Position numbers and translations under genes: made by a program
Source of the DNA: Thioalkalivibrio thiocyanoxidans ARh2
GTDB taxonomy: Bacteria; Pseudomonadota; Gammaproteobacteria; Ectothiorhodospirales; Ectothiorhodospiraceae
DNA: 64,000 bases
Reading direction: 5' to 3'
Assembly: GCF_000385215.1 (NCBI RefSeq)
Contig: NZ_ARQK01000061.1
Coordinates: forward strand, 1 to 64,000
The notes under the pieces: model-generated
The model's database searches: none
What the model was told of the DNA's origin: nothing
Seen by the model: only the letters and a program-made list of their open reading frames with translations
Part shown: positions 44,474-60,074 of the stretch, in pieces
Layout of the letters: each line of letters begins with the position of its first letter
Numbering within the stretch: the first letter of the stretch is position 1

Positions 44474-47400
44474 ATGAGTAATCCGACATCCGCGTCTGAA
44501 GGTCTCTCGGGTCGCGAACTCGCCCGGGAACGGCGCAAGGCCATGTCTCGTAATGGCAAGGCCGCCGTGAAGTCGACCGGCCAAAACAAGGGATCGCGTT
44601 CCGCCGCGGCCGCGCAAAAGGCGCGCCAGGCCGAGCGTGCTTCCGCACCGGCCCCCCAGGCGCGGGAGCCGGAATCGCACTCCAGCGAATCTCAGCCGTC
44701 GCCCTCGTTCGAGGTCGACAGCAGCGCCCGTGAGCGCCGCCCGGAACCGGGCGCGCACGCCGGCGCCTCGAACGGCCGCCAGGCTGCCCTCGAGCGTCGC
44801 CAGAAAATGGCGCGCCAGGGCAAGAAGGCGGTCGGTCGTTCCAACACCCGTGCCCGCGCACTCGGCGGTCTGGCTCGCGGCGGCGCCGACCGCTCGCGTC
44901 AGCTCGAGGCGCTGTCGCAGAGCCAGGGCATGGAGATCGACTGTTCCCACATGAGCGGTCGCGAGATCTGCCGTCTGCGCCGGCAGGCGCTGGCGACTGA
45001 GGGCAAGAAGGCCATGGCCGCGGAGCCGCGCCGGGAAGACCTGCTGAAAGGGCAGGGCTCCTTCTCGGAAGACGCACAGGAAGAGAAGCAGGGCTGTGGC
45101 TGTGGCTGCAAGGGCGAGAAGTCCGAGCGCGACGATGGCTACAGCGCGGACTCCAGCGATCGCGACACTGTGGTGGAAAGCGGTCTCGACACGCTTTGCG
45201 AGAAGGTGGAGTCCGGCGGCGAGGCGGCGGGTCCTCACCCGATGATTTCCGAGGTCCGTGCGATCTGCATGGCCCGTCGCGAGGCGATGGCCCAAAACGG
45301 CAAGCGAGCAACCAAGCGCCGTTTCAACGGCTCGAAGGGTCGCGGTGCCATGCCGCAGGAAGGTGCCTGGAAGGCCGCGAAGCGCAAGGGCATGTCCACC
45401 CGCGAGGTGGCACGCCAGCGTCGCCAAGAACTGTGCACCATTGGTCGCGGTTCCTCGGATCCGGGACGTCCCTGTGGACGCCCGCGCCACCAGGCAAGCG
45501 AGGCCCCGCCGAAGGTGGAAGAAGGCACGACGCTTGCGGGCGGCCACGTCAGTGGGACCCAGGTCGAGAGTACCCGAAGCGTGACCGGCGCCGAAGCGGG
45601 CAGCTGTTCGAACATTACGGGTACCGAGTACCTCGGGCTGGAACACTACGAGCGCTACTGCAACGTGCGCCCGAATGCCAATCCGGCCAAGGTCGGCCAC
45701 TCCCATACCAGCCGTGGCCAGGAGGTCAGTGGTACGGAGGTCGGCCGTTCGGCGCGAGTGACGGGTGACGAGTCCGGTTCCTGCGAGGCGATCACCGGGA
45801 CCGAGTATCTCAGCAGCGAGCAGTACGAAGGCTTCTGCGGGACTCGCGCGCCGTCGACCAAGCCGCGCACCAGCGTGATGATGACCAGCCACGGCGAGGG
45901 TGTCTCCGGCACCAGTGTCGGCCGCAGCCCGCGTGTAACCGGTGACGAGTCCGGCTCCTGCCGCGACATTACCGGTACCGAATACCTGAACACGCAGGCC
46001 AGCGAGGTGCCCTGCAGCGCGGGAAAGTCCAACGGAGCGCCGATGAAGGTCGGCGTCATGCACACGCTTCGCGGTCGTGAACTGACCGGGACCGAAGTCG
46101 GGCGCTCCTCGCGAGTCACGGGCGACGAATACGGCAGCTGCAAGCCGGTCACCGGGACCGAATACATCGGTACGGAACAGTTCAAGGGCATGTGCGGTAC
46201 GCGCCCGGAGCCGACGCCGGCCAAGGTGCAGGAGCTGCACACGATGGAAGACCAGAGCGTGACGGGTACGGCCGTGGGTCGCAGCCCGAAGGTGACCGGT
46301 GACGAGTCCGGATCCTGCCGGCCGCTGACGGGTACGCCGTACTATAACCAGGCGGATTTCGGCGACCTCTGCGATCGTCCGGCCGCCGGCGGTGTGCCCA
46401 AGGTCGGGGTGATGCACACGCTGCGGGGCCGGGAAGTCTCCGGCACGCAGGTCGAGAGCTCGCTGCGCGTGACGGGTGATGAATACGGCGGCTGCAAGCC
46501 GATCACTGGAACGGAATATGTCGGCTCCGAGCATTACGACGCCTTCTGTGGCACCCGTCCGCAGGCCGGTCCGGAGAAGGTCTCCGTGAGCCGCACCTGG
46601 AATCAGCAGAACGTCTCCGGCAGCGCCGTGGGTCGGTCGGCCCGAGTGACGGGCGACGAATACGGTGCGTGCAAGCCGGTTTCGGGTACGCCGTATATCG
46701 GTGCTGACCAGTACGACGCCTATTGCGATCCGCGGGACGCCCAGACGGCGCAGACCCGAGTGGCCGAGCGCCACGCGACGCCCGCGCATCCGGTCTCCGG
46801 CAGCCAGCCGGGTTATGACGAGCGGGTGACCGGCACTGAACGCGGAGCATGCCAGGACGTCTCGGGTGCACCCTATGTTGGCGCCAACGAGTTCGCTGCG
46901 ACCTGTCCGACGGCGGCGAGCAGCCTGCATCCGCGGCTGCGTCCGGAAGGGCAGGCCGCCGTGGCCGCGCCGGTCGCCGAAGTGCCGGCCCACGAGATGC
47001 CCAACGCCGGGTTCAGTGTGCAGAGTCCGGCCCGCGAGGCCTGGGCGCGCCGCGAACGCCGCGTAACCGGGACCGCCTATGGCGCGTCGGGTGGTATTAC
47101 CGGCCCGATCAACAAGGCCACGGGCCTGGTGTCGGGTACGGAAGAGTTCCGCTATCAGCCGGATCGCCACCAACCGGTGCCGGCCCAGGCCGAAGAGGCC
47201 CCGAAGACGGGTGCCGAGCGCGTGACCGTCAACGGGAGCAGTAACGGGGTGACGATCACTGGCGATGACTGGGGCCGTGGCAACAGCGTGACGGGTACTG
47301 AAGGGTTCTCCACGCGCCGGAATGCGACGCAGAAGGGCAACCCGCGGGGCGAGGGCCGGAGCGCCTATGTCAACCGCGAGCTGGAGCGCAAGGAAGTGCC

Positions 47401-47479
47401 AATGAGCAAGATCACCGGTTCCTCCGGGAACAGCGGCAGCGGCTCTCTGGTAACCCTGTCCGGCGGTGCCCGCGGCTAA
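44474..47479 (+). CDS. csoS2: Carboxysome assembly scaffold CsoS2
   Basis: A 1001-residue, largely disordered scaffold. The N domain (about 1-330) has four to five basic RuBisCO-binding repeats such as SGRELARERRKAMSRNGKAA and SGREICRLRRQALATEGKKA. The middle region (about 355-815) has eight repeats of about 60 residues built on V(S/T)GT..., RVTGDE(S/Y)G.C and ITGTEY, each ending in a conserved Cys. The C domain anchors the shell and ends GSGSLVTLSGGARG. It is longer than the Halothiobacillus protein (about 870) because of extra middle repeats. A CGCGC-rich Cys cluster (GCGCGCKGEK) lies in the N domain. Confidence 0.96.
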   Translation: MSNPTSASEGLSGRELARERRKAMSRNGKAAVKSTGQNKGSRSAAAAQKARQAERASAPAPQAREPESHSSESQPSPSFEVDSSARERRPEPGAHAGASNGRQAALERRQKMARQGKKAVGRSNTRARALGGLARGGADRSRQLEALSQSQGMEIDCSHMSGREICRLRRQALATEGKKAMAAEPRREDLLKGQGSFSEDAQEEKQGCGCGCKGEKSERDDGYSADSSDRDTVVESGLDTLCEKVESGGEAAGPHPMISEVRAICMARREAMAQNGKRATKRRFNGSKGRGAMPQEGAWKAAKRKGMSTREVARQRRQELCTIGRGSSDPGRPCGRPRHQASEAPPKVEEGTTLAGGHVSGTQVESTRSVTGAEAGSCSNITGTEYLGLEHYERYCNVRPNANPAKVGHSHTSRGQEVSGTEVGRSARVTGDESGSCEAITGTEYLSSEQYEGFCGTRAPSTKPRTSVMMTSHGEGVSGTSVGRSPRVTGDESGSCRDITGTEYLNTQASEVPCSAGKSNGAPMKVGVMHTLRGRELTGTEVGRSSRVTGDEYGSCKPVTGTEYIGTEQFKGMCGTRPEPTPAKVQELHTMEDQSVTGTAVGRSPKVTGDESGSCRPLTGTPYYNQADFGDLCDRPAAGGVPKVGVMHTLRGREVSGTQVESSLRVTGDEYGGCKPITGTEYVGSEHYDAFCGTRPQAGPEKVSVSRTWNQQNVSGSAVGRSARVTGDEYGACKPVSGTPYIGADQYDAYCDPRDAQTAQTRVAERHATPAHPVSGSQPGYDERVTGTERGACQDVSGAPYVGANEFAATCPTAASSLHPRLRPEGQAAVAAPVAEVPAHEMPNAGFSVQSPAREAWARRERRVTGTAYGASGGITGPINKATGLVSGTEEFRYQPDRHQPVPAQAEEAPKTGAERVTVNGSSNGVTITGDDWGRGNSVTGTEGFSTRRNATQKGNPRGEGRSAYVNRELERKEVPMSKITGSSGNSGSGSLVTLSGGARG
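45541..46920 (+). repeat. Eight tandem ~180-base units inside csoS2
   Basis: The start of the VSGT element recurs at about 45541, 45720, 45899, 46080, 46256, 46435, 46614 and 46794, a period of 176-181 bases. These encode the CsoS2 middle repeats. The last unit is more diverged. Such an array is open to unequal crossing-over that changes repeat number. Confidence 0.85.
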
Positions 47480-47508: not shown

Positions 47509-49074
47509 ATGGTGCGCCGAGGCCGCCGCAAGACTTCTCCGTTTGGCACGCGCTACGCGACGCCGCGGGGAAGTGCCGTCCGGTCGCCGGCAACGCCAGG
47601 GTCGAGCACGGGTACCGCGCAGCCTCTGGTGAGCGCGGTGCCGCCCAAGGCAAAGGCCCCGGTGGAACCGACCGTGCTGAAACCCGGGCATCCGCTCGCG
47701 GATGTCGCCGACAACGAACGGCTGTACGCGTTCGAGAGCGGTTTTCGCGATCGGTTTGCGAATCTGGTGCCGGTACTGAAAGAGGTCCACGCGCTGCAGC
47801 ACGAGCGGGACTTCGAGGAAAAGGCGCAACGGATTGTCGAGGACAACCTCGGGTATCGGTTGCCGGAACGCGTCCTGGAGGATGCGTGGATCAATGATCT
47901 GGATACGCGCGAACTGTACCTGCACGGCACGTTCGAGCTGTTCGATCAACTGGTCAACGAATACTGGGCGGGTCGGGATGACCTGGTGGACGAGGCGGAA
48001 CGCGCGATTGCGTATTTCCTCGACTGCGACTTCCACGAAGTGGACATCTCGCCCTGTTCCGACGGGCGGCTGTTGAGCCTGCGGCGCTTTATTCTGCGCC
48101 TGCCGGACCTGGCCGTTCGGGTAAAGAGTTATGCCGGGGCGCAGTTCGACATCGAAGAGGATGTGCGCCACTGGACGAAACGCGAGCTGTTGCGGTTTCG
48201 CGAGGGGCGGCCGACCACGGCGGATGTGCCGAGTCGGTACCTGAAGATCGCGGCGTATCACTACAGCAGTGCGGACCCGCATCACCAGGGGTGTGCGGCG
48301 CACGGCAACAGCGAACGGGATGCAGCGGATGCCGCGCTGCGGCAGCTGCGGGCGTTTCGTCAGGCGATCGAGAACACCTACTGCTGTGGGGCCTCGGTCG
48401 ACACGCTGCTGATCGGTGTGGATACGGATACGGATGCGGTGAAGATCCATATCCCGGACGCGGATACGCGGATGAGTCTGTACCGCTTCGTGGACAGCGC
48501 GAAGGTGTATCGGGAGACGCAGGACCTGAATGGCCGTGACGCAGAGCTGCGCGTCTATCAGGCGATCCAGGACGCGATCCACCAGCAGGGCTGGGGACAC
48601 GGCAACGGGGGACCGCACGAGGGGATGCTTCGGCTAATCTCGCGGCTGCTGCTGAATAATATTTCGCAGCTCGATTACGTGGCGCGCTACCACAACGGGC
48701 ATTACGCCGACGTGGGCCACCGCGAGCGGGTGATCATCGTCGGCCAGGAAGTCGAGGAGATGCAGGTACGCAACTTTGCCTACTTCGCGCATCTGGAGAC
48801 GATGGAAGAGGGCGCCCACGGGATGGACGTGGGGGTGAACAAGATCTTTCGGCAGCTGAATGTCGAGCGGGGTCTGCCGGTACCGGTGGTGATCCATTAC
48901 CGCTACGACCGCAAGGTGCCGGGGTCGCGCGAGCGGGTCGAGGCGCGCTGCCGGCGGATTCGCGACCAGATCATGGCGCGCTACCGCGAACTGGCCGAAA
49001 AGGGCCTGATCGGGTGCCACATGGTGATTCGCGACAAGCGCAGCGGCAGCCAGCTGGAACCGCTCGCCGGTTGA
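47509..49074 (+). CDS. csoSCA: Carboxysomal carbonic anhydrase CsoSCA
   Basis: A 521-residue epsilon/beta-type carbonic anhydrase (older name csoS3) that makes CO2 inside the carboxysome. Zinc ligands are C183 (PCSDGRLLS, with D185 and R187), H251 and C262 (GCAAHG), in the same spacing as the Halothiobacillus enzyme. The first 50 residues are basic and disordered, like the segment that binds RuBisCO there. A GTG or ATG start near 47509 follows AAGGAGG. It lies 29 bases after csoS2. Confidence 0.96.
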   Translation: MVRRGRRKTSPFGTRYATPRGSAVRSPATPGSSTGTAQPLVSAVPPKAKAPVEPTVLKPGHPLADVADNERLYAFESGFRDRFANLVPVLKEVHALQHERDFEEKAQRIVEDNLGYRLPERVLEDAWINDLDTRELYLHGTFELFDQLVNEYWAGRDDLVDEAERAIAYFLDCDFHEVDISPCSDGRLLSLRRFILRLPDLAVRVKSYAGAQFDIEEDVRHWTKRELLRFREGRPTTADVPSRYLKIAAYHYSSADPHHQGCAAHGNSERDAADAALRQLRAFRQAIENTYCCGASVDTLLIGVDTDTDAVKIHIPDADTRMSLYRFVDSAKVYRETQDLNGRDAELRVYQAIQDAIHQQGWGHGNGGPHEGMLRLISRLLLNNISQLDYVARYHNGHYADVGHRERVIIVGQEVEEMQVRNFAYFAHLETMEEGAHGMDVGVNKIFRQLNVERGLPVPVVIHYRYDRKVPGSRERVEARCRRIRDQIMARYRELAEKGLIGCHMVIRDKRSGSQLEPLAG

Positions 49075-49090
49075 GCTAACGGGACACGGA

Positions 49091-49342
49091 ATGAAGATCT
49101 GCAAGGTAGAGAAGACGCTGGTTTCGACCAACCGGATCCGGGATCTGGGCCACCGTCCCTTGCTGGTGGTGCAGGAGAAGGCCGGCGGGCCGCGCACGGT
49201 AGCGGTGGACGCGGTCGGCTGTGTCCCCGGGGACTGGGTGATCGTGGTGGGTTCGTCCGCCGCACGCGAGGCCGCGGGGAGCAAGGAATACCCCAGTGAT
49301 GCGACGATCGTAGGGATCATCGACTACTGGGAGGAGCAGTAG
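49091..49342 (+). CDS. csoS4A: Carboxysome pentameric vertex protein CsoS4A
   Basis: An 83-residue EutN/CcmL-fold protein that forms pentamers closing the shell vertices. It starts MKICKVEKTLVSTNRI and has the family motif GDWVIVVGSSAAREA. ACGGGACACGGA precedes the start. It lies 16 bases after csoSCA and four bases before csoS4B. Confidence 0.96.
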   Translation: MKICKVEKTLVSTNRIRDLGHRPLLVVQEKAGGPRTVAVDAVGCVPGDWVIVVGSSAAREAAGSKEYPSDATIVGIIDYWEEQ

Positions 49343-49346
49343 CTCC

Positions 49347-49679
49347 ATGGAAATTATGCAGGTGCAGGACGAACTGGTGGTGACCCGTCGCGTGGACGGA
49401 CTCAAGACCATGTCGCTGCGCGTGCTGGTGGATCAGAAGGGCGCGCTCAGCGTGGCCGTGGATCCGGTCGGTGCACACCCGGGTAACTGGGTGTTCACGA
49501 TCTCTGGATCGGCCGCGCGCTACGCGCTCGATGACCCCAAGGTGACAACCGATCTGACGATCGGCGGCATCATCGACCACTGGGACGATGGTGGCAGAAA
49601 GACGGAAGGGTCGAAGGACATGGCTGGACAAGACCAGGCCGATGCACAGCGCTCTGCTAGTACCCACAAGGCGGCTTGA
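49347..49679 (+). CDS. csoS4B: Carboxysome pentameric vertex protein CsoS4B, extended
   Basis: A 110-residue vertex protein, paralogue of CsoS4A (MEIMQVQDELVVTRRVDGLK; GNWVFTISGSAARYA). The fold should end near residue 82; about 28 more residues (KTEGSKDMAGQDQADAQRS..., Gln/Ala/Ser-rich) extend it. Usual CsoS4B proteins have about 81-83 residues, so the tail is unusual. The gene ends 44 bases before the first csoS1. Confidence 0.93.
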   Translation: MEIMQVQDELVVTRRVDGLKTMSLRVLVDQKGALSVAVDPVGAHPGNWVFTISGSAARYALDDPKVTTDLTIGGIIDHWDDGGRKTEGSKDMAGQDQADAQRSASTHKAA

Positions 49680-49723
49680 GCGTCATTTTAATTGGAAAAA
49701 CTGTAACTCCAGGAGAAAGAGAA

Positions 49724-50023
49724 ATGGCAACTGAACGTTTTGGTGTGGCGCTGGGCATGATTGAAACCCGCGGTCTGGTGCCGGCGATCGAAGCCGCCGA
49801 TGCGATGACCAAGGCCTCGGAAGTACGCCTGATCGGTCGTCAGTTCGTCGGCGGCGGCTACGTGACCGTTCTGGTGCGTGGCGAGACCGGTGCCGTGAAC
49901 GCCGCCGTGCGTGCCGGTGCGGATTCCTGCGAGCGTGTGGGCGACGGCCTGGTGGCTGCGCACATCATTGCCCGCGTGCATTCGGAAGTGGAAAGCATCC
50001 TGCCCGAGCAGGTTGAAAAGTAA
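49724..50023 (+). CDS. csoS1C: Carboxysome hexameric shell protein CsoS1, copy 1
   Basis: A 99-residue single-domain BMC protein that tiles the shell facets. It starts MATERFGVALGMIETRG and contains the pore loop region FVGGGYVTV. I placed the start at 49724 (AGGAGAAAGAGAA upstream); the frame to 49676 is spurious. The core of about 88 residues is identical to copies 2 and 3 apart from one or two residues. Letter assignment follows position in the usual order and is tentative. Confidence 0.95.
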   Translation: MATERFGVALGMIETRGLVPAIEAADAMTKASEVRLIGRQFVGGGYVTVLVRGETGAVNAAVRAGADSCERVGDGLVAAHIIARVHSEVESILPEQVEK

Positions 50024-50054
50024 TTCATCAGTAACGCTTGATAGGAGTTGAGTA

Positions 50055-50348
50055 ATGGCTAGCGAAAACTTTGGTGTGGCCCTCGGCATGATCGAGACCC
50101 GTGGTCTGGTGCCGGCGATTGAAGCCGCCGATGCGATGACCAAGGCCTCGGAAGTGCGCCTGATCGGTCGTCAGTTCGTCGGTGGCGGTTACGTGACCGT
50201 TCTGGTGCGTGGCGAGACCGGTGCCGTGAACGCTGCGGTGCGTGCCGGCGCGGATTCCTGCGAGCGTGTGGGCGACGGCCTGGTGGCTGCGCACATCATT
50301 GCCCGTGTGCATTCCGAGGTGGAAAACATCCTCCCGGAAAAGCCGTAA
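50055..50348 (+). CDS. csoS1A: Carboxysome hexameric shell protein CsoS1, copy 2
   Basis: A 97-residue BMC shell protein (MASENFGVALGMIETRG ... VENILPEKP), almost identical to copy 1. It follows by 31 bases with GATAGGAG before the ATG. Very high DNA identity among the three copies suggests recent duplication or gene conversion. Subscript is tentative. Confidence 0.95.
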   Translation: MASENFGVALGMIETRGLVPAIEAADAMTKASEVRLIGRQFVGGGYVTVLVRGETGAVNAAVRAGADSCERVGDGLVAAHIIARVHSEVENILPEKP

Positions 50349-50367
50349 GTCCCTACCGGGGATGAAC

Positions 50368-50394
50368 GCCGCCGCGGCCGATCGGCCCGGCGGC
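50368..50394 (+). other. Hairpin between csoS1 copies 2 and 3
   Basis: GCCGCCGCGGCC pairs with GGCCCGGCGGC around GATC with one bulge, followed by CCGTTTGTAAAA. It may be an attenuator or mRNA-stability element that lowers expression of copy 3 and later genes. Confidence 0.5.
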
Positions 50395-50416
50395 CCGTTT
50401 GTAAAAGAGGTTAGCA

Positions 50417-50731
50417 ATGGCGAGCGAAATTTCTGGTGTGGCCCTGGGCATGATCGAGACCCGCGGTCTGGTGCCGGCAATTGAAGCGGCGGATGCGATG
50501 ACCAAGGCCTCGGAAGTGCGCCTGATCGGTCGTCAGTTCGTCGGTGGCGGTTACGTGACCGTTCTGGTGCGCGGCGAGACCGGTGCCGTGAATGCGGCGG
50601 TGCGTGCCGGTGCGGATTCCTGCGAGCGTGTGGGTGACGGCCTGGTGGCTGCGCACATTATTGCCCGCGTCCACTCCGAAGTGGAAAGCATCCTGCCGAA
50701 GGCCCCGACTGCCGACGGCTCGGCCAGCTGA
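50417..50731 (+). CDS. csoS1B: Carboxysome hexameric shell protein CsoS1, copy 3 (extended)
   Basis: A 104-residue BMC shell protein (MASEISGVALGMIETRG) with the same core and a short Ser/Ala tail (PKAPTADGSAS), like CsoS1B with its C-terminal extension. AAAAGAGG precedes the ATG at 50417. It lies 68 bases after copy 2, downstream of a hairpin, and ten bases before the ferritin-like gene. Confidence 0.94.
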   Translation: MASEISGVALGMIETRGLVPAIEAADAMTKASEVRLIGRQFVGGGYVTVLVRGETGAVNAAVRAGADSCERVGDGLVAAHIIARVHSEVESILPKAPTADGSAS

Positions 50732-51481: not shown

Positions 51482-51545
51482 CCGACCATCACGTCAGAGT
51501 CCACGAGCCGGACCCGTCCGGTTCCTGGCCCTAGGAGGCTGATAC

Positions 51546-52181
51546 GTGGGTTCCCGGGTATTCGCGGTAGTCAATCAGAAAGGGGGTACTGGCAAGACCA
51601 CCCTCTCCATGAACCTCGCCGCCGGTCTGGCGCGCCGAGGGCGTACCCTGGTGGTCGATGCGGATCCGCAGGCGTCGGCCGGCCAGTGGGCACGGATGTC
51701 CTCGGACGAGCGTCCGTTTCCCGCCTCCGTGTTCGCGGTCGCAGGTCCGCTGGACCGCGAACTCAAGGCGCTTCGCAAGGATTACGATCACATCGTGGTG
51801 GACTGTCCGCCGACCCTGGAGGGCGGGGCGGTCACGGCTGCCCTCGCCGGCTCGGATGTGGTGCTGATCCCCGTTCTGCCATCCCCCGTCGATCTTTGGG
51901 GCAGCGTCCGGATGGGCCGCGGTCTGGAGGAGGCGCAGATGAAGAACCGGTCGCTGCGCCCCTATATCGTGGTCAATCAGCTCGAGGTCCGCAGTGCGCT
52001 GTCGCGCGCGATGAAGCATGCACTGATGGAGATCGACATACCCGCGCTGGAACAATCGCTCCGGCGGCGGGCCATCTATCGGCGTTCCGCGCTGGAAGGC
52101 TGTTCCGTGTACGACCTGGGCAAACCGGGCGAACCGGCGGCGGCCGAGATCGAAGCCATCATCGAGGAGGTGTCGCAATGA
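51546..52181 (+). CDS. mcdA: Carboxysome-positioning ATPase McdA (ParA family)
   Basis: A 211-residue ParA/MinD ATPase that distributes carboxysomes along the nucleoid. The Walker A is NQKGGTGKTTLS with the signature Lys at residue 12, Walker A' is VVDADPQASAGQW, and the C-terminal part ends with a helical segment. GTG start at 51546 has a perfect AGGAGG seven bases upstream. Its stop overlaps the start of mcdB (ATGA), so the two are coupled. Confidence 0.92.
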   Translation: MGSRVFAVVNQKGGTGKTTLSMNLAAGLARRGRTLVVDADPQASAGQWARMSSDERPFPASVFAVAGPLDRELKALRKDYDHIVVDCPPTLEGGAVTAALAGSDVVLIPVLPSPVDLWGSVRMGRGLEEAQMKNRSLRPYIVVNQLEVRSALSRAMKHALMEIDIPALEQSLRRRAIYRRSALEGCSVYDLGKPGEPAAAEIEAIIEEVSQ

Positions 52182-52588
52182 GCAATCTGCAAGACAAGCT
52201 GGCGGCCGGCGTGCGCAGCGCCCGCGAAGACCAGGACAAGGACAGCAACACCGCGGCGGACAACGCGCCGAAGAAGGACACCAGCGCGACGCCCGCGAGC
52301 ACGCAACCACATCAGGCAGCGAGCACCAAGGCGGCCGCAACCAAGAAGGCCGCTACGCCCAAGGGGACAGCCCGCAAGACGGCAACCCGCAAGGGGTCTG
52401 CGACCAAGCGGAAGGCCCCGGCCAAGAAGCCGGCCGCACAGTCCACACGCAAGACGTCGGCCACGAAGTCCAGCGGCTCGGCCGCGAGCCGGCGCGGCGG
52501 CGCACCCGAACTGGATCCGGGCAAGGCGAAGGCGACGGCCGACGAACCGTGGAAGAACCTGCACCCGAATCGTATCTGGCCGGACTGA
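52178..52588 (+). CDS. mcdB: Carboxysome-positioning adaptor McdB
   Basis: A 136-residue, highly charged, disordered protein dominated by Lys, Ala and Thr (about residues 45-105). It ends NRIWPD, matching the C-terminal Trp conserved in McdB proteins. McdB sits on the carboxysome and stimulates McdA. The gene overlaps mcdA by four bases and is followed by a strong terminator. Assignment rests on context, composition and the terminal Trp because sequence conservation is low. Confidence 0.85.
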   Translation: MSNLQDKLAAGVRSAREDQDKDSNTAADNAPKKDTSATPASTQPHQAASTKAAATKKAATPKGTARKTATRKGSATKRKAPAKKPAAQSTRKTSATKSSGSAASRRGGAPELDPGKAKATADEPWKNLHPNRIWPD

Positions 52589-52668: not shown

Positions 52669-53472
52669 ATGCAAGACGATCTGCGCGATCACCTGATCAC
52701 GGACGAGCCGTACTACCAGCCGGTCGCGGACGAGATCGAGCTGTACGAGGCGGCGTACTCGGTGCGCATGCCGATGATGCTGAAAGGGCCGACGGGCTGC
52801 GGGAAGACCCGCTTCGTCGAGCACATGGCCTGGAAGCTCGGCAAGCCCCTGATCACTGTAGCGTGTAACGAGGACATGACGGCTTCCGATCTGGTCGGCC
52901 GTTATCTGCTCGATGCCGACGGTACGCGCTGGCAGGACGGTCCGCTGACCCTGGCGGCGCGCCACGGGGCGATCTGCTATCTCGACGAGATCGTGGAGGC
53001 CCGCCAGGACACCACGGTGGTGATCCACCCGCTGACCGACAACCGCCGCGTGCTGCCGCTGGAGAAGAAGGGTGAGATGGTCCAGGCCCATGCGGACTTC
53101 CAGGTCGTCATATCGTACAACCCCGGCTACCAGAGCCTGATGAAGGATCTGAAGCAGTCGACCAAGCAGCGCTTCGGCGCGCTCGATTTCGACTACCCCG
53201 ATCACGAGACCGAGGCGAAGATCGTCGCCCACGAGGGCAAGATCAACGAGGAGATGGCCGGCAAGCTGGTCAGTGTGGCCGAGCGGGCGCGGAACCTGAA
53301 GGGTCATGGCCTGGACGAGGGCATCTCCACCCGCATGCTGGTCTACGCCGCCTCTCTGATTGCCAAGGGTGTGGAGCCGCTGGGTGCCTGCCGCATGGCC
53401 CTGGTGCGGCCGATCACCGACGATCCGGACATGCGCGACGCGCTGGATTCGGCCGTCACCACGTTCTTCTAG
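52669..53472 (+). CDS. cbbQ: RuBisCO activase subunit CbbQ (MoxR-type AAA+)
   Basis: A 267-residue AAA+ ATPase that with CbbO removes inhibitory sugar phosphates from RuBisCO. Walker A is GPTGCGKT (residues 40-47), Walker [12 protein letters not shown] and sensor region VISYNPGYQ. It begins 19 bases after the terminator and is followed by cbbO 22 bases later. Related NorQ proteins act on NO reductase; the RuBisCO context decides here. Confidence 0.94.
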
Positions 53473-53494
53473 CGCAGCTCGGGGCGCCCAACCC

Positions 53495-55816
53495 ATGAGC
53501 ATCCATCTGGAGGACTACCAGGACCTCCTCGACGATCTGGGGAACCACGCCGCGGAGGTGCTGGAGAGTTCCTGGCAGGAGGCCAGTCGCGCCTTCAGCG
53601 CCAGCGGGCTCAAGCGCTACTACCTTGAAGGCGCCCGCAGTCTCCAGGCCCTCGGGCGCGGTTCGGAGATGGTCGTCGCCTTCGTACAGGAGGCGCCGGC
53701 ACTGGCCCAGGAGCTGGGCGAGGATGCGGTTGCGGAACTGCTCAGCTCCGCGATCAAGATGTATTCCAAGACCTCCGCGGCGGTCATCACTCTGGTGATC
53801 GAGACCAGCCCGGTCGCGGCTCAGCGGCTTGGCGACTATTCGCTGTTCGAAGGGTATTTGCGCCTGCTGGATAACCTGCTCGGGCAAGCGCCGCGCGGCG
53901 TACGGCCGATGCTGGAGCACCTGGACGAGCTGCTGACCCACCTGACGCTGGGCGGGCTGCGGCGCTGGGCGACGTGGGGCGCGCAGGCGCACCGCACGGA
54001 CCTCGAGGCCCAGATTGCCTACTTTGGCCTGGAGTCGCCGGAGTCGCGTTCGGTGTTCCAGAAGGAGCGCCGGGGCACGCTGTTCGTCGACGTGCAGCGC
54101 CGGATCAACCTCTACCTGCGCTCGCTGTGGGCGCGTGATTTCTTCATGCGCCCGACCAGTGGCGACTTCGAATCGCGCGAGGGGTATCGTCCGTACATCG
54201 AGGGCTTCACGATCTTCCTGCCGGATGCCTACGACGATGTCGAGGGCCTGACCGGGCTGGACCTCTATCGCGCGGCGGCCGCGCACGCGGCGTCCCATGT
54301 GGTGCACACCCGCGAGATGCAGCCGGAGGAGGGGCCACGGGGCGTGGTCGGCATCCTGACCGAGCTGTTCGAGGACGCGCGCATCGAGGCCCTGGCGATC
54401 GCCGCGTTCCCGGGTCTGCGCCAGATCTGGGTGCCGCTGCACACCGCCACGGCGGAGGATGGCGAGACGCCGCAGGCATTGCTGGCGCGCACCGCGCGCG
54501 CCCTGCTGGATCCGGATTATCACGACCCGCATCCGTTCGTGCAGAAGGCCGTGAGTGCTTTTGCGGAACGGGTAGAGGACCTCGAGGCCGCAGGCCTGGC
54601 CCGCGAGTTGGCCGAGGCGCTGGCGACCGAGTTCCCCGAGCAGGGCTATATGAACCCGGCCAAGGTCGCGCCGGATGTCCTCTATCGCGACGACAACCGC
54701 TATCTCTGGAACTTCGGGCGTGAAGAGGAAGAGGCGGAGGTCCTGGCCGCGCACGGCTCCGGACAGGAGCGCTTCTACGTCACCCCGATGGAGATGATCA
54801 ACACGCTGGATGTGCCTAACGCCGGCGACGATGCCCAGCAGATCATGGTGCTGGCGACCGAGTGGTTCCGCGACGGCGAAGACGAAAGCATCAACCAGCA
54901 GGAGGGCAAGGAGCCGATCTCGCTGCCGTTCCACTATCACGAGTGGGACTACCAGATGCAGCTGGAACGGCCGCACTGGGTCACGCTGCTGGAGCGGCGC
55001 CCGCGAAAGGGCGAGATCGAGGAGATCGAGGCCATCTACGACAAGCACAAGCCGCTGGTCTCGCGCCTGAAGTTCCTGATCGAGGCGATGCAGCCCCAGG
55101 GCGTGCAGCGCATGCGCAAGCAGCCGGAGGGTGACGAGCTGGACGTGAACGCGCTGGTCGAGGCGCAGATCGATGTCCGCATGCGCCGTCAGCCCGACGA
55201 GCGCATTTATGTGCGCAATCTGCGCCATGTGCGCGATCTCTCCGTGCTGGTGCTACTGGACCTGTCGGAGTCGACCAACGAGACGATCGGCGACGGCGAG
55301 ACGACCGTGGTGCAACTGGCGCGCGAGGCGGCCACGCTGCTGTCCGGTGCGATCTCGCGCATTGGCGACCCGTTCGCCATCCACGGCTTCGCCTCCGACG
55401 GACGCCACGACGTCGAGTACTACCGCTTCAAGGATTTCGATGCCCCGTTCGACGACACCGCGAAGGCGCGTCTCGCCGGGATGAAAGGCCAGCTGTCCAC
55501 CCGCATGGGAGCGGCCATCCGCCATGCCGGCCAGTTGCTGCACAATCAGGGCACGGCGAAAAAGCTGCTGCTGATCATCACCGACGGCGAACCGGCGGAT
55601 ACGGACGTGCGTGATCCGCAGTATCTGCGTCAGGACGCGAAGCGGGCGGTAGAGGAGGTCGGGCGCAAGGGGGTCTATACCTTCTGCATGAGCCTCGACC
55701 CGCAGGCGGACGAATACGTCGAGCGTATCTTTGGGGCCCAGCACTTCATGGTGCTGGACCAGATCGAGCGGCTCCCGGAAAAGCTCCCGATGCTGTACGC
55801 GGGCCTTACGCGGTAA
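53495..55816 (+). CDS. cbbO: RuBisCO activase subunit CbbO (VWA domain)
   Basis: A 773-residue adaptor. The N-terminal half is helical and binds the CbbQ hexamer; the C-terminal von Willebrand A domain binds RuBisCO. Its MIDAS motif LLDLSESTNET lies near residue 587, with a later SLDPQADEY. The frame extends to 53360 within cbbQ; I chose ATG at 53495, just after cbbQ, which gives MSIHLEDYQDLLDDLG. No clear Shine-Dalgarno is visible. Confidence 0.93.
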   Translation: MSIHLEDYQDLLDDLGNHAAEVLESSWQEASRAFSASGLKRYYLEGARSLQALGRGSEMVVAFVQEAPALAQELGEDAVAELLSSAIKMYSKTSAAVITLVIETSPVAAQRLGDYSLFEGYLRLLDNLLGQAPRGVRPMLEHLDELLTHLTLGGLRRWATWGAQAHRTDLEAQIAYFGLESPESRSVFQKERRGTLFVDVQRRINLYLRSLWARDFFMRPTSGDFESREGYRPYIEGFTIFLPDAYDDVEGLTGLDLYRAAAAHAASHVVHTREMQPEEGPRGVVGILTELFEDARIEALAIAAFPGLRQIWVPLHTATAEDGETPQALLARTARALLDPDYHDPHPFVQKAVSAFAERVEDLEAAGLARELAEALATEFPEQGYMNPAKVAPDVLYRDDNRYLWNFGREEEEAEVLAAHGSGQERFYVTPMEMINTLDVPNAGDDAQQIMVLATEWFRDGEDESINQQEGKEPISLPFHYHEWDYQMQLERPHWVTLLERRPRKGEIEEIEAIYDKHKPLVSRLKFLIEAMQPQGVQRMRKQPEGDELDVNALVEAQIDVRMRRQPDERIYVRNLRHVRDLSVLVLLDLSESTNETIGDGETTVVQLAREAATLLSGAISRIGDPFAIHGFASDGRHDVEYYRFKDFDAPFDDTAKARLAGMKGQLSTRMGAAIRHAGQLLHNQGTAKKLLLIITDGEPADTDVRDPQYLRQDAKRAVEEVGRKGVYTFCMSLDPQADEYVERIFGAQHFMVLDQIERLPEKLPMLYAGLTR

Positions 55817-55829
55817 CCGGTCGCCACGC

Positions 55830-56852
55830 ATGGCCCAGTCCCCGACGCCGAAGGAGTCGAGCCTCCCGCAAGTGATGCTCAAATCGGAGCTGCCGGCGCA
55901 CCTGATCCGGCACGCCACGCTGCGTCAGCTGCAGGTGTTCGAGGCGATCGTGCGCCTGGGGAGCTTTACCCGCGCGGCGGAAGAGCTGCATCTGACCCAG
56001 CCGACCGTCTCGATCCAGATCAAGAAGCTCTCCACGGCGCTGGGGCTCCCGCTGTTTGAATACGTGGGGCGCAAGGCCTTCCCGACCGAGGTCGGGCTGC
56101 TGCTGTACGACACCTGCCGCGAGATGCTCGGTGCGCTGACCAACCTCGAGATGAAACTGGCCGAGATGCACGGCCTCAAGCGCGGGCGTCTCCGCCTGGC
56201 GGTGATCACCACGGCGCAGTACTTCGCGCCCAGCATCCTCGGGCAGTTCGCCCGGCGGTATCCGGATATCGAGCTGTCTCTGGAAGTCAGCAACTTTGAC
56301 CGGGTGCTGGACCGGCTGTCGAACAATGACGATGACCTCTACATCATCGGGCATGTGCCCGAGCGACTGACCGATGTCGCCGTGCACCCGTTCGCTCCGA
56401 ACCCGCTGGTGGTGATGGCGAGCCGCGACCACCCGCTGGTGGGTCGGCGCAATATCCCGCTGAAGGAGCTGGAGCAGGAGACGTTCCTGATGCGCGAGCC
56501 CGGCTCGGGCATCCGCGAGGCGACGCTCAAGCTGTTCCAGGAGCACGGGATCAGCCCGCCCGTGCGCATGGAGCTGGGCAGCAACGAGGCGATCAAGCAG
56601 GCAGTGATCGGTGGCCTGGGGATTGCCGTGCTGTCGCTGCACACCCTCAGTGCCGAAGGGGCCGAGGGTCCGGTGGCACTGCTGGATGTCGAGCACTTCC
56701 CGATCCATCGCCAGTGGCACATCGTCTACCCGAAGAAGAAGGTCCTGTCGGTCGTCGCCCAGACCTTTCTCGACTTCGCGATCCAGGACGAGGCCCGGGT
56801 GCGCGGGCAGGTCGAGGACCTGCTGGCCGCGTTCAAGGCCCAGGCCGGCTGA
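55830..56852 (+). CDS. cbbR: LysR-family regulator CbbR
   Basis: A 340-residue LysR-type regulator that controls RuBisCO/carboxysome genes in response to metabolites. HTH: LRQLQVFEAIVRLGSFTRAAEELHLTQPTVS. The C-terminal effector domain begins around residue 120 (RLAVITTAQYFAPSI). ATG at 55875 would shorten the N terminus by 15 residues. In most organisms cbbR is divergent from cbbL; here it lies at the end of the locus, same strand, 13 bases after cbbO. Confidence 0.87.
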   Translation: MAQSPTPKESSLPQVMLKSELPAHLIRHATLRQLQVFEAIVRLGSFTRAAEELHLTQPTVSIQIKKLSTALGLPLFEYVGRKAFPTEVGLLLYDTCREMLGALTNLEMKLAEMHGLKRGRLRLAVITTAQYFAPSILGQFARRYPDIELSLEVSNFDRVLDRLSNNDDDLYIIGHVPERLTDVAVHPFAPNPLVVMASRDHPLVGRRNIPLKELEQETFLMREPGSGIREATLKLFQEHGISPPVRMELGSNEAIKQAVIGGLGIAVLSLHTLSAEGAEGPVALLDVEHFPIHRQWHIVYPKKKVLSVVAQTFLDFAIQDEARVRGQVEDLLAAFKAQAG

Positions 56853-56885
56853 GTGGCCGCCCTGACAGGCCCGCAAGGGGCCCTT

Positions 56886-57040
56886 GGGAAACGCTGATTG
56901 ATCGGCGTTTCCCTGCGGCACAGGGACGTGCCGCCGGAATCGACCGCCGTAGGCGGTTGAGTACGGCGCAAGCTGCAAACTGCGTTTGCGGCGCCGCGTG
57001 CGCTGAGAAAGCCGGGATGGCTTTATTCAGCGCTTTCTTT
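56886..57040 (+). terminator. Hairpins after cbbR
   Basis: GGGAAACGC and GCGTTTCCC form an inverted repeat near 56886-56914. A second hairpin (57000-57033) pairs GCGCTGAGAAAGCC with GGCTTTATTCAGCGC around GGGAT and is followed by TTTCTTT. The second fits an intrinsic terminator and lies only 50 bases before the next gene, so it may also influence that gene. Confidence 0.6.
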
Positions 57041-57090
57041 AAAATTCACGCTTTACCCGGCCGCCATCGGCCCGAGTGGGAGAACACGCA

Positions 57091-57657
57091 GTGAGTACCG
57101 TGACCCGTCCGCGTATCAGCGGCACCCAGTTCATCAACGCCGACGAGGCCCCGCGTTCGCGCCTGAGTCTGAGCGCCTCGCACCGCGACCAGCATCACCC
57201 GGTGACCGGGACGGGCAGCGATATGCTCGCCGGCGCGATCGATACCCCGCCGAACGAGAGCTGCGTGGTCTGTGCCCCGGCCACGCGTCGCCTGGCCGAG
57301 GAGCTGTTCGACGCCTGGAACGACGCCCTGCAGACGGGCGATGCCCGCCGTGTGACCGAGCTGTACGCCGACGACGCGGTCCTGCTGCCGACCGTGTCCA
57401 ATGTCCCGCGCACCAACCATGCCGAGATCCAGGACTACTTCGAGCATTTCCTCGAGAAGAAGCCCTACGGCACCATCAACACGCGCAATGTGAAGCTCGG
57501 CTGCAACAAGCTGACCGACGCCGGCACCTATACCTTCCGCGTAAGCGACGGCAACGAGACGCAGGAAGTCCCCGCGCGCTACACCTTCGTCTACGAGAAC
57601 CGCGACGGGAAGTGGCTGATCGTGCACCATCACTCCTCGATGATGCCGACCGCCTGA
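57091..57657 (+). CDS. SnoaL/CaMKII-AD-like protein with CsoS2-like N-terminal motifs
   Basis: A 188-residue cytoplasmic protein without signal peptide. Residues 1-60 are disordered and carry ISGT (9-12) and VTGT (38-41), like motifs repeated in CsoS2 (VSGT and VTGT/ITGT), plus a Cys pair in ESCVVCAP. Residues 62-188 form an NTF2-like domain of the SgcJ/EcaC or CaMKII-association type (FDAWNDALQTGDARRVTELY ... GKWLIVHHHSS). GTG at 57091 has GGGAG eight bases upstream; a GTG at 57076 is less likely. Lying beside the carboxysome locus, it may be a cargo or shell-bound protein. That role is inference. Confidence 0.8.
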   Translation: MSTVTRPRISGTQFINADEAPRSRLSLSASHRDQHHPVTGTGSDMLAGAIDTPPNESCVVCAPATRRLAEELFDAWNDALQTGDARRVTELYADDAVLLPTVSNVPRTNHAEIQDYFEHFLEKKPYGTINTRNVKLGCNKLTDAGTYTFRVSDGNETQEVPARYTFVYENRDGKWLIVHHHSSMMPTA

Positions 57658-57725
57658 TCCGGTACGGCCGTGCAGTGAGGCCGCGCCGCCAGTTTCGGGC
57701 GGCGAACACGTTCAGAGGCAGCGAC

Positions 57726-58208
57726 ATGACTTCATACCCCGTCGCGGCGCTCGCCGCCGCACTCCTCGTGCTGGTTTCCGGTACTGCCTCGGCTGGCAGC
57801 GGCGACGCGCGCGAAATGGTCTGCGCACCGGTCGACCAGGACCTGGCGCTGGAGCGGTTCGAAACCTGGAACGATGCCCTGCAGACCGGCGATGCGGCTC
57901 GCGTGACTGAACTCTACGCCGAGGACGCCGTATTGCTGCCCACGGTCTCCAGGGTCCCGCGCACGAACCACGCAGAGATCCAGAATTATTTCGAACATTT
58001 CCTCGAGTCGAGGCCCTACGGGACTATCGACTCCCGCAACGTAAGGCTCGGCTGCAACCAGCTGACCGATGTCGGGATCTACACCTTCCGGATGACGGTG
58101 GACGGCGAGACCGAGGAAGTCCAGGCGCGCTACACCTTCGCTTACGAGCACCGTGACGGGCAGTGGCGGATCGCGCATCACCATTCCTCGAAGATGCCCG
58201 CTGACTGA
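57726..58208 (+). CDS. Periplasmic SnoaL/CaMKII-AD-like paralogue
   Basis: A 160-residue protein with a Sec signal peptide (VAALAAALLVLVSGTASAG). The mature domain is strongly similar to the preceding protein (ETWNDALQTGDAARVTELYAED; QWRIAHHHSSKMP), clearly a tandem duplicate. The N-terminal motif segment of the first copy is replaced by the signal peptide, so the paralogues occupy different compartments. It begins 68 bases after the first copy. Function unknown. Confidence 0.82.
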   Translation: MTSYPVAALAAALLVLVSGTASAGSGDAREMVCAPVDQDLALERFETWNDALQTGDAARVTELYAEDAVLLPTVSRVPRTNHAEIQNYFEHFLESRPYGTIDSRNVRLGCNQLTDVGIYTFRMTVDGETEEVQARYTFAYEHRDGQWRIAHHHSSKMPAD

Positions 58209-58247
58209 ACGGGCCTGGAGACTGTCCAGCACGGAGGTCCGCCGCGC

Positions 58248-60074
58248 TCAGCCTTCGCGGCCGCGTTCCATTGCCCGAGCGAGGTTGATGCCGCTGGAGA
58301 TCAGGCCCATGTGGCTGAACGCCTGCGGGAAGTTGCCGAGGAAGGCGCCGCTGGCCGGGTCGATCTGCTCCGGCAGCAGCCCCAGGGTGTTGGTGCGGGC
58401 GCACAGCGAGTCGTACAGCTCCATCGCCTCGTCCAGCCGGCCCTGGTCGGCAAGGTTGTCCACCAGCCAGAAGCTGCACAGCAGGAACGCCCCCTCGTCT
58501 CCGGCCAGCCCGTCGGGGGATTCATCGGGGAGATAGCGGTAGAGCAGGCCGTTGCCGGCCCCCAGCCGTTTCACCACCGCAGCGGTGGTGGCCACCATCT
58601 TCGGGTGGTTCGCCGAGATGACGCCGCGCCAGGGCAGGGCGAGCAGGCTGGCGTCGATGCCACCGCGGCCCAGATGCTCGGTCAGGGTCTGGCGTTCCGG
58701 GTCCCAGGCATCGTTGAGGATCGCCTCGCGGATCTCCTGCGCCTCCACCCGCCACAGCTTGCTGTTGCCCGGCATGCCGTGGCTGTCGGCCAGGTCCGCC
58801 CCGCGGTCCAGCGCCACCGCGCACATGGCGGCGGAATAGGTGAACGGCCGCCCCGGGGTGCGCACCTCCCAGATGCCGTGATCCGGCTTTTTCCATTCCT
58901 CGGCGGCCGCGTCGATCAGGCGCCGCAGGCGGTTCCACAAGTGCTCGTCGAGGGTGCCGCCCCAGTTGACCCAGCGGTAGGCGCAGTCGAGGATCTCGCC
59001 GAACACGTCGTGCTGGCGCTGCTCCACCGCGCCGTTGCCCCAGCGCACCGGGCCCGAGCGCCGGTAGCCCTCGAGCCCGGGTTCCTCGCGCTCCGGCTGC
59101 GGCAGGTGGCCGTCGACGTCGTACAGCACCCGCGGCCAGCCGCCGGAGCGGTCCACCGCATCCAGCGCCCAGCCGAGAAAGCCGGCCGCCTCGTGACCCA
59201 TGCCGATATGGCCGATGGCGGAGACCGAGAACGCGGCATCGCGGATCCAGGCGTAGCGGTAATCCCAGTTGCGCGGACCGCCGATGGCCTCCGGCAGACA
59301 GCAGGTGGGCGCAGCGATCATCGCGCCGGTGGCGGTGTAGTCCATCAGCTTGAGGGTGACCGCCGAGCGGCGGACCAGCGCCTCCTGCGGGCCGTGGTAG
59401 TGGAAGTGCTCCATCCAGCGCTGCCAGACGTCGACCGTGGCCTCCACCAGCTGCTCCGGGGTGCGGGCGAGGAAGCGGTGGGTGTGTGAGCCCCACGACA
59501 GCAGCAGATGGTGGCGGGCGCCGGCGGCGAGTTCGTGCACGGCGTCGGTGCTGTCGAGCGGCAGCGAGGTGTCGAGGTTCAGTTCCAGTGCGGGCTGGCG
59601 GTTGGGCATGATCTGCAGGGTCGGCCCGTGTGGCGCGACCCGGGCGCGACCCCAGGGCTCGACACGGATGCGCAGGCGCACGCGGCCCTTCAGCACCTCG
59701 ATGTGCCGCAGCAGCTCCCCGCGTCCGGCCGGGGCATCCTCGGAAAGGTCGGCTCCGGCGCGCAGCGGCAGCGTGTCGGTGATCCGCACGCGTCCCTCGG
59801 GCCCGTCCATTTCGGTGACCAGCACCGCAGTGTCCCCGAGATAGTACTGGCGGGCGGCCACCAGCGGCTCGGGCGCCACGCGGAACACCCCGCCGTGGCG
59901 GTGATCGAGCAGGCCGCAGAACAGCGGCTCGGAGTCGAAACGCGGCACGCACATCCACGAGATGCCGCCATCGCGTCCGACCAGGGCGGCGGTGGTGCCG
60001 TCCCCGATCAGGCCGTGGTCCTCGATCGGCAGGTAGCCGTCTATCCGTTTCAGGGGCGCATCAGGTGCCGTCAC
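58248..60074 (-). CDS. GH15 glucoamylase/trehalase-like enzyme
   Basis: A 608-residue inverting glycosidase of family GH15. Landmarks are the N-terminal IEDHGLIGDGTTAALVGRDGGISWMCVPRFDS, the (alpha/alpha)6 barrel entry NWDYRYAWIRDAAFSV and a catalytic region near REAILNDAWDPERQTLTEHLG. Family members include glucoamylase, dextran glucosidase and bacterial trehalase; which applies is not visible. It follows treZ on the same strand by 42 bases, so a role in trehalose or maltodextrin turnover is likely. Confidence 0.88.
   Translation of the reverse strand: MTAPDAPLKRIDGYLPIEDHGLIGDGTTAALVGRDGGISWMCVPRFDSEPLFCGLLDHRHGGVFRVAPEPLVAARQYYLGDTAVLVTEMDGPEGRVRITDTLPLRAGADLSEDAPAGRGELLRHIEVLKGRVRLRIRVEPWGRARVAPHGPTLQIMPNRQPALELNLDTSLPLDSTDAVHELAAGARHHLLLSWGSHTHRFLARTPEQLVEATVDVWQRWMEHFHYHGPQEALVRRSAVTLKLMDYTATGAMIAAPTCCLPEAIGGPRNWDYRYAWIRDAAFSVSAIGHIGMGHEAAGFLGWALDAVDRSGGWPRVLYDVDGHLPQPEREEPGLEGYRRSGPVRWGNGAVEQRQHDVFGEILDCAYRWVNWGGTLDEHLWNRLRRLIDAAAEEWKKPDHGIWEVRTPGRPFTYSAAMCAVALDRGADLADSHGMPGNSKLWRVEAQEIREAILNDAWDPERQTLTEHLGRGGIDASLLALPWRGVISANHPKMVATTAAVVKRLGAGNGLLYRYLPDESPDGLAGDEGAFLLCSFWLVDNLADQGRLDEAMELYDSLCARTNTLGLLPEQIDPASGAFLGNFPQAFSHMGLISSGINLARAMERGREG

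Follow-up and report, generated by a model that had tools for sequence, protein, structure and literature searches.

An iota-class carbonic anhydrase with CsoS2-like motifs in a disordered N-terminal tail, encoded beside the carboxysome locus of Thioalkalivibrio thiocyanoxidans ARh2 and a putative carboxysome cargo

The open reading frame at positions 57091–57657 of the stretch of T. thiocyanoxidans ARh2 DNA analysed here (64,000 nucleotides, the window) lies beside a carboxysome locus, and raises the question of why a protein with an NTF2-type domain should carry short motifs of the kind found in CsoS2. A reading made from the sequence alone (the sequence-only reading) had placed ISGT at residues 9–12 and VTGT at residues 38–41 of this protein, csoS2 about 10 kb upstream and cbbQO-cbbR next to it; translation of the frame and annotation of the locus bore this out. 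The gene order in the window is the cso block (cbbLS, csoS2, csoSCA, csoS4AB and the csoS1 genes), cbbQO, cbbR and the tagged gene, with the following features:

44474..47479, + strand: csoS2 (PF12288, E 6e-177)
47509..49074, + strand: csoSCA, encoding the usual beta-type carbonic anhydrase of carboxysomes (TIGR02701, E 2e-186; matches to all three Pfam domains)
49091..49342, + strand: csoS4A pentamer gene (gene order kept in relatives; named from the locus order)
49347..49679, + strand: csoS4B pentamer gene (gene order kept in relatives; named from the locus order)
49676..50731, + strand: three csoS1 hexamer genes (homologues of PF00936 genes in the locus of G099, a Thiomicrospira-type genome)
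52669..55816, + strand: cbbQ and cbbO (CbbQ_C and VWA domains)
55911..56852, + strand: cbbR, immediately before the tagged gene (LysR domains; CbbR is the best-scoring NCBIfam model, below its cut-off)

Between cbbR and the tagged gene a run of inverted repeats was seen at 56886–57010, parts of which recur at four other sites of the genome with 84–96% identity, and which probably represents a small repeat dispersed in the genome. A search of 56800–58300 for sigma-70 promoter and terminator patterns gave no match. Between a pterin-dehydratase-like gene and cbbQ (51531–52588) a long plus-strand frame is 73% conserved, versus 98% for its neighbours (comparison with locus L003), and a different frame may contain the actual gene of this interval.

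The tagged protein was examined as a folded domain and an N-terminal extension. For the gene and its domain the features are:

57091..57657, + strand: tagged iota-carbonic anhydrase gene (188 aa, GTG start; matches to CaMKII_AD, TIGR02246 and 7c5x)
57277..57651, + strand: folded NTF2/CaMKII-AD carbonic anhydrase domain, residues 63–187 (pLDDT mostly >90; structural matches 3h51, 7c5v and 7c5x)
57625..57639, + strand: HHHSS motif, residues 179–183 (H180, H181, S182 and S183 without variation in 30 members, with and without the tag)

An alternative GTG start of the frame is found at 57076. Pfam CaMKII_AD (PF08332) matched residues 71–186 with E 8e-22, and the SgcJ/EcaC model TIGR02246 matched the protein with E 3e-19, both above cut-off. 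In the AlphaFold2 model, obtained with an input alignment of 30 window and locus sequences, pLDDT was below 50 for residues 1–26 and 28–49 and above 90 for most of residues 60–188, so that model and Pfam limits both uphold the separation of the N-terminal 60 residues from the NTF2/CaMKII-AD fold that had been proposed. The nearest solved structure in the structure comparison was 3h51 (54% identity, Z 22.1), after which the iota-carbonic anhydrases showed the highest identity among solved structures (23–27%), with 7c5v and 7c5x at Z 16.2 and 16.1 and identities of 23–26% (26% for 7c5x). Since many NTF2 folds reach about equal Z, the fold alone does not decide the identity of the enzyme; the family profile, however, matched the solved iota-carbonic anhydrase 7c5x in a profile search (E 6e-14) and the HHSS of the tagged protein aligns with the HHSS of 7c5x, and by these sequence matches the domain belongs to the iota-carbonic anhydrase family. 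The catalytic residues of metal-free iota-carbonic anhydrases are Thr106, Tyr124, His197 and Ser199 (PMC8425729). T101 and Y116 of the tagged protein are invariant and are candidates, by conservation, for the catalytic Thr and Tyr, and the enzyme is presumed to be active.

The extension and the CsoS2 segment that it resembles are as follows:

57091..57267, + strand: disordered N-terminal tag, residues 1–59 (low pLDDT; confined to the CsoS2-associated clade)
57115..57126, + strand: tag motif 1, ISGT, residues 9–12 ([IV][TS]G[TS] in 19/19 aligned sequences)
57166..57186, + strand: tag element SLSASHR, residues 26–32 (S26 and R32 invariant; spacing as in T-x-S-G-G-A-R at the CsoS2 C-terminus)
57202..57213, + strand: tag motif 2, VTGT, residues 38–41 ([IV][TS]G at the same place in 31/33 orthologues)
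47411..47473, + strand: extreme C-terminal peptide of CsoS2, ITGSSGNSGSGSLVTLSGGAR, which the tag resembles (apart from the tag, nothing else in the window fits the two-part pattern)

Orthologues were classed as tagged by motif 1, motif 2 playing no part in the selection, and the two exceptions for the second triplet near residue 38 were one protein with VSG at residue 23 and one lacking any second triplet, the second copy of the Thiomicrospira-type genome. Over 19 diverse sequences, columns 9–12, 15, 26, 32 and 51 were constant in residue class. The conservation of the motifs, one of the checks that the sequence-only reading had called for, was thus found, for motif 2 independently of the selection.

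That reading had compared the tag with the middle repeats of CsoS2, and this likeness stands in part. Motif 1 does resemble a CsoS2 middle-region motif (ISGTQFINAD versus VSGTPYIGAD), whereas the conserved S26 and R32 fit the extreme C-terminal peptide better. After the first triplet the tag has an invariant S and, six residues on, R; the same arrangement is seen in the CsoS2 C-terminal peptide, [IV]TG[SG][SA]GNTxxGxx[IV]TxSGGAR. A two-part pattern, [IV][TS]G[STGA]-x(8-14)-[VIL][ST]x[SG]xxxR, drawn up after both proteins had been seen, occurred once per protein, at the C-terminus, in all six CsoS2 proteins inspected whole. It was present in 13 of 19 tags and its looser version in 19 of 19, the chance per sequence, given motif 1, being 0.3% and 3%, respectively. 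Nothing beyond the tag and the CsoS2 C-terminus was matched in 76,000 aa of window frames and in 516,000 aa of other loci, the latter enriched for these genes. An early match of the tail to a VTGTEG-RNxS module of CsoS2 was dropped, as the extreme C-terminal peptide aligns better.

Residue weights taken from CsoS2 only gave significant scores for the tags of the Thiomicrospira lineage (matched by 0, 2 and 20 of 1000 shuffles), and a non-significant one for the window tag (233 of 1000). The hhalign comparison of the tail with CsoS2 gave P 0.1 for the last 95 residues, 0.009 for the part preceding them, 0.04 for the middle region and 0.85 for the N-terminal region, with 0.56 for a reversed control; a hidden Markov model of the CsoS2 C-terminal peptide failed to separate the tags from shuffles, and PF12288 (CsoS2_M) had no match in the tagged protein. 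Ungapped 10-mers of the tail were significant against the CsoS2 of the same genome in some species only. Profile comparison thus gave no proof that the tail is homologous to CsoS2, and the Thiomicrospira lineage is the only one in which its likeness to the extreme CsoS2 C-terminus is clear statistically. Searched against its own genome, the tail profile (A2) found the gene itself and CsoS2 at E 3.5, and nothing else. In 60 CsoS2-positive genomes no further tagged cargo was found, the clear matches being only CsoS2 and iota-carbonic anhydrases; the profile used there was built from CsoS2 C-terminal peptides and Thiomicrospira-type tags, so that the latter were themselves in it, and it missed the tag of the window.

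Of 20 relatives that came up when genome contigs were scanned, the 19 from Thioalkalivibrio, Halothiobacillus, Guyparkeria and gammaproteobacterial MAGs carried the tag, and a single one, from Pseudomonas, did not. In a sample of 47 genomes of the order the tagged form was present in 18, all of them CsoS2-positive, and in none of the 10 CsoS2-negative genomes (Fisher p 0.004), one of which (G011) has an untagged relative; 19 of the 37 CsoS2-positive genomes were devoid of the tagged gene. In a sample of 369 genomes of the class nine of the ten tagged genomes were CsoS2-positive (G000, G020, G203, G313, G386, G406, G099, G162 and G237; class-wide Fisher value 2e-6), and in the tenth, G104, which is 84% complete, CsoS2 was not found and a BMC shell gene was present. 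None of the eight class genomes with strong untagged members has CsoS2 (versus 9/10 of the tagged; Fisher p 0.0002 within the family). As the genomes share ancestry, all three Fisher values make the association look stronger than it is. Across the phylum sample, the strong matches outside the own genome all started at profile position 30 or later, so that none was of the tagged form. A hydrophobic, secretory-type N-terminus occurs in many untagged relatives and in no tagged one.

The tagged proteins, together with a tandem copy in the window, form one clade split from the untagged relatives at 97/98 support. In the Thioalkalivibrio loci the tagged gene adjoins cbbR about 10 kb from csoS2. In Guyparkeria-type genomes and in G162 it lies outside the cso locus, and the distance to csoS2 reaches 82 kb in G162 and 726 kb in G313, with the tag kept in both; judged from these gene positions, the tag is not explained by neighbourhood to the cso locus alone. 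The proposal of a carboxysome cargo or shell-associated enzyme is thus well supported by genome association, the tagged form tracking CsoS2 and the untagged relatives not; nor was the same extension common, in the genomes sampled, in organisms that do without carboxysomes.

The tandem copy follows the tagged gene directly:

57726..58208, + strand: tandem paralogue, same domain, with a hydrophobic leader replacing the tag (72% identity; leader hydropathy 3.07)

It is the only second copy among the 47 genomes of the order, and it falls inside the tagged clade, its exact placement there not being settled by the tree. From its leader it is probably periplasmic, and it looks like a duplicate in which the tag was lost and a secretion signal gained. 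The tandem copy, like the iota-carbonic anhydrase identity, the presence of csoSCA in the locus and the 29-residue spacing of the triplets, lay beyond the earlier reading.

In calling the cargo unrecognised that reading was only partly right. According to papers that cite Wieschollek 2024 (PMC12628692, PMC12646314 and PMC12918739), an iota-carbonic anhydrase has been found in the carboxysomes of Thiomicrospira and is the carboxysomal carbonic anhydrase of that genus, and csoSCA is absent from all Thiomicrospira carboxysome loci (PMC9164163). The enzyme class and its carboxysomal role are thus already known from Thiomicrospira. A description of the tag as a targeting peptide, or of its coexistence with CsoSCA, was not found in the literature and both look new, although Wieschollek 2024 may already describe the tag. 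In the Thiomicrospira-type genome G099 two tagged iota-carbonic anhydrase genes flank a BMC shell gene within the carboxysome locus (C1:1793345-1795817, L071), the second copy being the one that has no second triplet.

CsoSCA, on the other hand, is encoded in the window and in all genomes of the order with the tagged form, and the carboxysome here may hold two unrelated carbonic anhydrases. It is absent from G162 and G099; the other tagged genomes searched (G104 aside) have it. G162 has a carboxysome locus (C34; L073, L074), csoSCA nowhere in its genome and the tagged iota-carbonic anhydrase 82 kb away from csoS2, and this enzyme is a candidate for its missing carboxysomal carbonic anhydrase.

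In CsoS2 the [IV]TG triplets contact CsoS1A via His79, and the extreme C-terminus, within fragment F3 (Glu829–Gly869), is buried between one pentamer and two hexamers (PMC10484944). Replacement of VTG by AAA weakened or abolished the binding of CsoS2 to the shell and greatly reduced growth in air (PMC11365436). We infer encapsulation, shell docking and an F3-like mode of docking for the tagged protein, and regard it as probable that an iota-class carbonic anhydrase is packed into the alpha-carboxysome by a shell-docking tail, beside CsoSCA in Thioalkalivibrio. The disordered tail of about 50 residues would serve as the encapsulation peptide, its [IV][TS]G triplets and S-x-x-x-x-x-R element docking on the inner surface of the CsoS1/CsoS4 shell as the C-terminal fragments of CsoS2 do; mimicry of the last segment of F3 is the likeliest mode. 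The folded domain would interconvert bicarbonate and CO2 near Rubisco, acting beside CsoSCA in Thioalkalivibrio and relatives and in its place in Thiomicrospira.

Other readings of the same data were weighed against shell docking. The tail of a carboxysomal iota-carbonic anhydrase might instead bind Rubisco or CsoS2, which would account for the conserved serine and arginine element that [IV]TG alone leaves unexplained and would parallel the N-terminus of CsoSCA, reported to bind Rubisco (PMC12646314, PMC12918739). The triplets, however, are the shell-binding motif of CsoS2, and no significant likeness of the tail to the N-terminal, Rubisco-binding region of CsoS2 was seen in any of ten species, so that we consider this unlikely. 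The gene adjoins cbbR outside the csoS2-csoS1 block, as would suit a cytosolic iota-carbonic anhydrase whose tail motifs were inherited and have no targeting role. Such a tail would hardly be conserved over several families and absent from relatives that have no CsoS2, and a carbonic anhydrase active in the cytosol would deplete the pool of bicarbonate that a CO2-concentrating mechanism builds up; a cytosolic role is accordingly judged highly unlikely.

As NTF2 folds have many functions, and CaMKII hubs and ketosteroid isomerase also match the domain, the protein might also be a carboxysome component of other chemistry, or a structural one. We hold this to be decidedly unlikely in view of the identity to iota-carbonic anhydrases that comes next after 3h51, the retained HHSS and the Thiomicrospira relative reported as the carboxysomal carbonic anhydrase. 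As for a chance match, two [IV][TS]G triplets arose in 0.4% of shuffles of the 60-aa tail and a pair of [IV][TS]GT in 0.0025%, so that two triplets are expected occasionally in a proteome, in a few proteins per genome. It is the conservation of the motifs across divergent lineages, while neighbouring residues of the tail vary, that points to more than chance, and coincidence is hardly credible.

How enzymes reach the alpha-carboxysome shell remains a matter of debate in the case of CsoSCA, and only CsoS2-C was found in the literature as a native peptide used as an encapsulation tag. The chances seem about even that the tail is a portable natural alpha-carboxysome encapsulation peptide, copied from or converged on the extreme C-terminus of CsoS2 and working even far from cso, and that Thioalkalivibrio, Guyparkeria and relatives have two unrelated carboxysomal carbonic anhydrases. 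If so, a natural tag of about 25–50 residues on a small soluble enzyme would be useful for loading shells, and would offer a sequence handle with which to look for the carbonic anhydrase missing from carboxysome genomes devoid of csoSCA, such as G162. It also raises the question of why some sulfur oxidisers retain two carbonic anhydrases.

Among known systems, the match to 3h51, a Xanthomonas CaMKII-AD protein, is limited to the domain and leaves the tag unmatched. CsoSCA is likewise a carboxysomal carbonic anhydrase and, according to the literature, is targeted by a disordered N-terminal peptide, but its family is unrelated to the iota class; it has been reported to be recruited via Rubisco, or else to the shell, for which no binding peptide has been defined (PMC12646314, PMC12918739). 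With F3 of CsoS2 the tag shares disorder, occurrence in the same genomes and [IV][TS]G[ST] followed by [ST]-x-[SG]-x-x-x-R at matching spacing; the segment is C-terminal in CsoS2 and N-terminal in the tagged enzyme, where it has 1–3 additional loop residues and is attached to an enzyme in place of the rest of CsoS2. The triplets of CsoS2, 28 [IV][TS]G in the protein of the window, recur about every 8 residues, whereas the two of the tag start 29 residues apart. The closest counterpart is the carboxysomal iota-carbonic anhydrase of Thiomicrospira, which through the G099 copies belongs to one clade with the window protein (97/98); these copies bear the same kind of tag within a carboxysome locus, and the window gene likewise lies beside one, directly after cbbR. 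Thiomicrospira, however, is devoid of CsoSCA and Thioalkalivibrio has both enzymes, so that here the iota-carbonic anhydrase is no replacement for CsoSCA.
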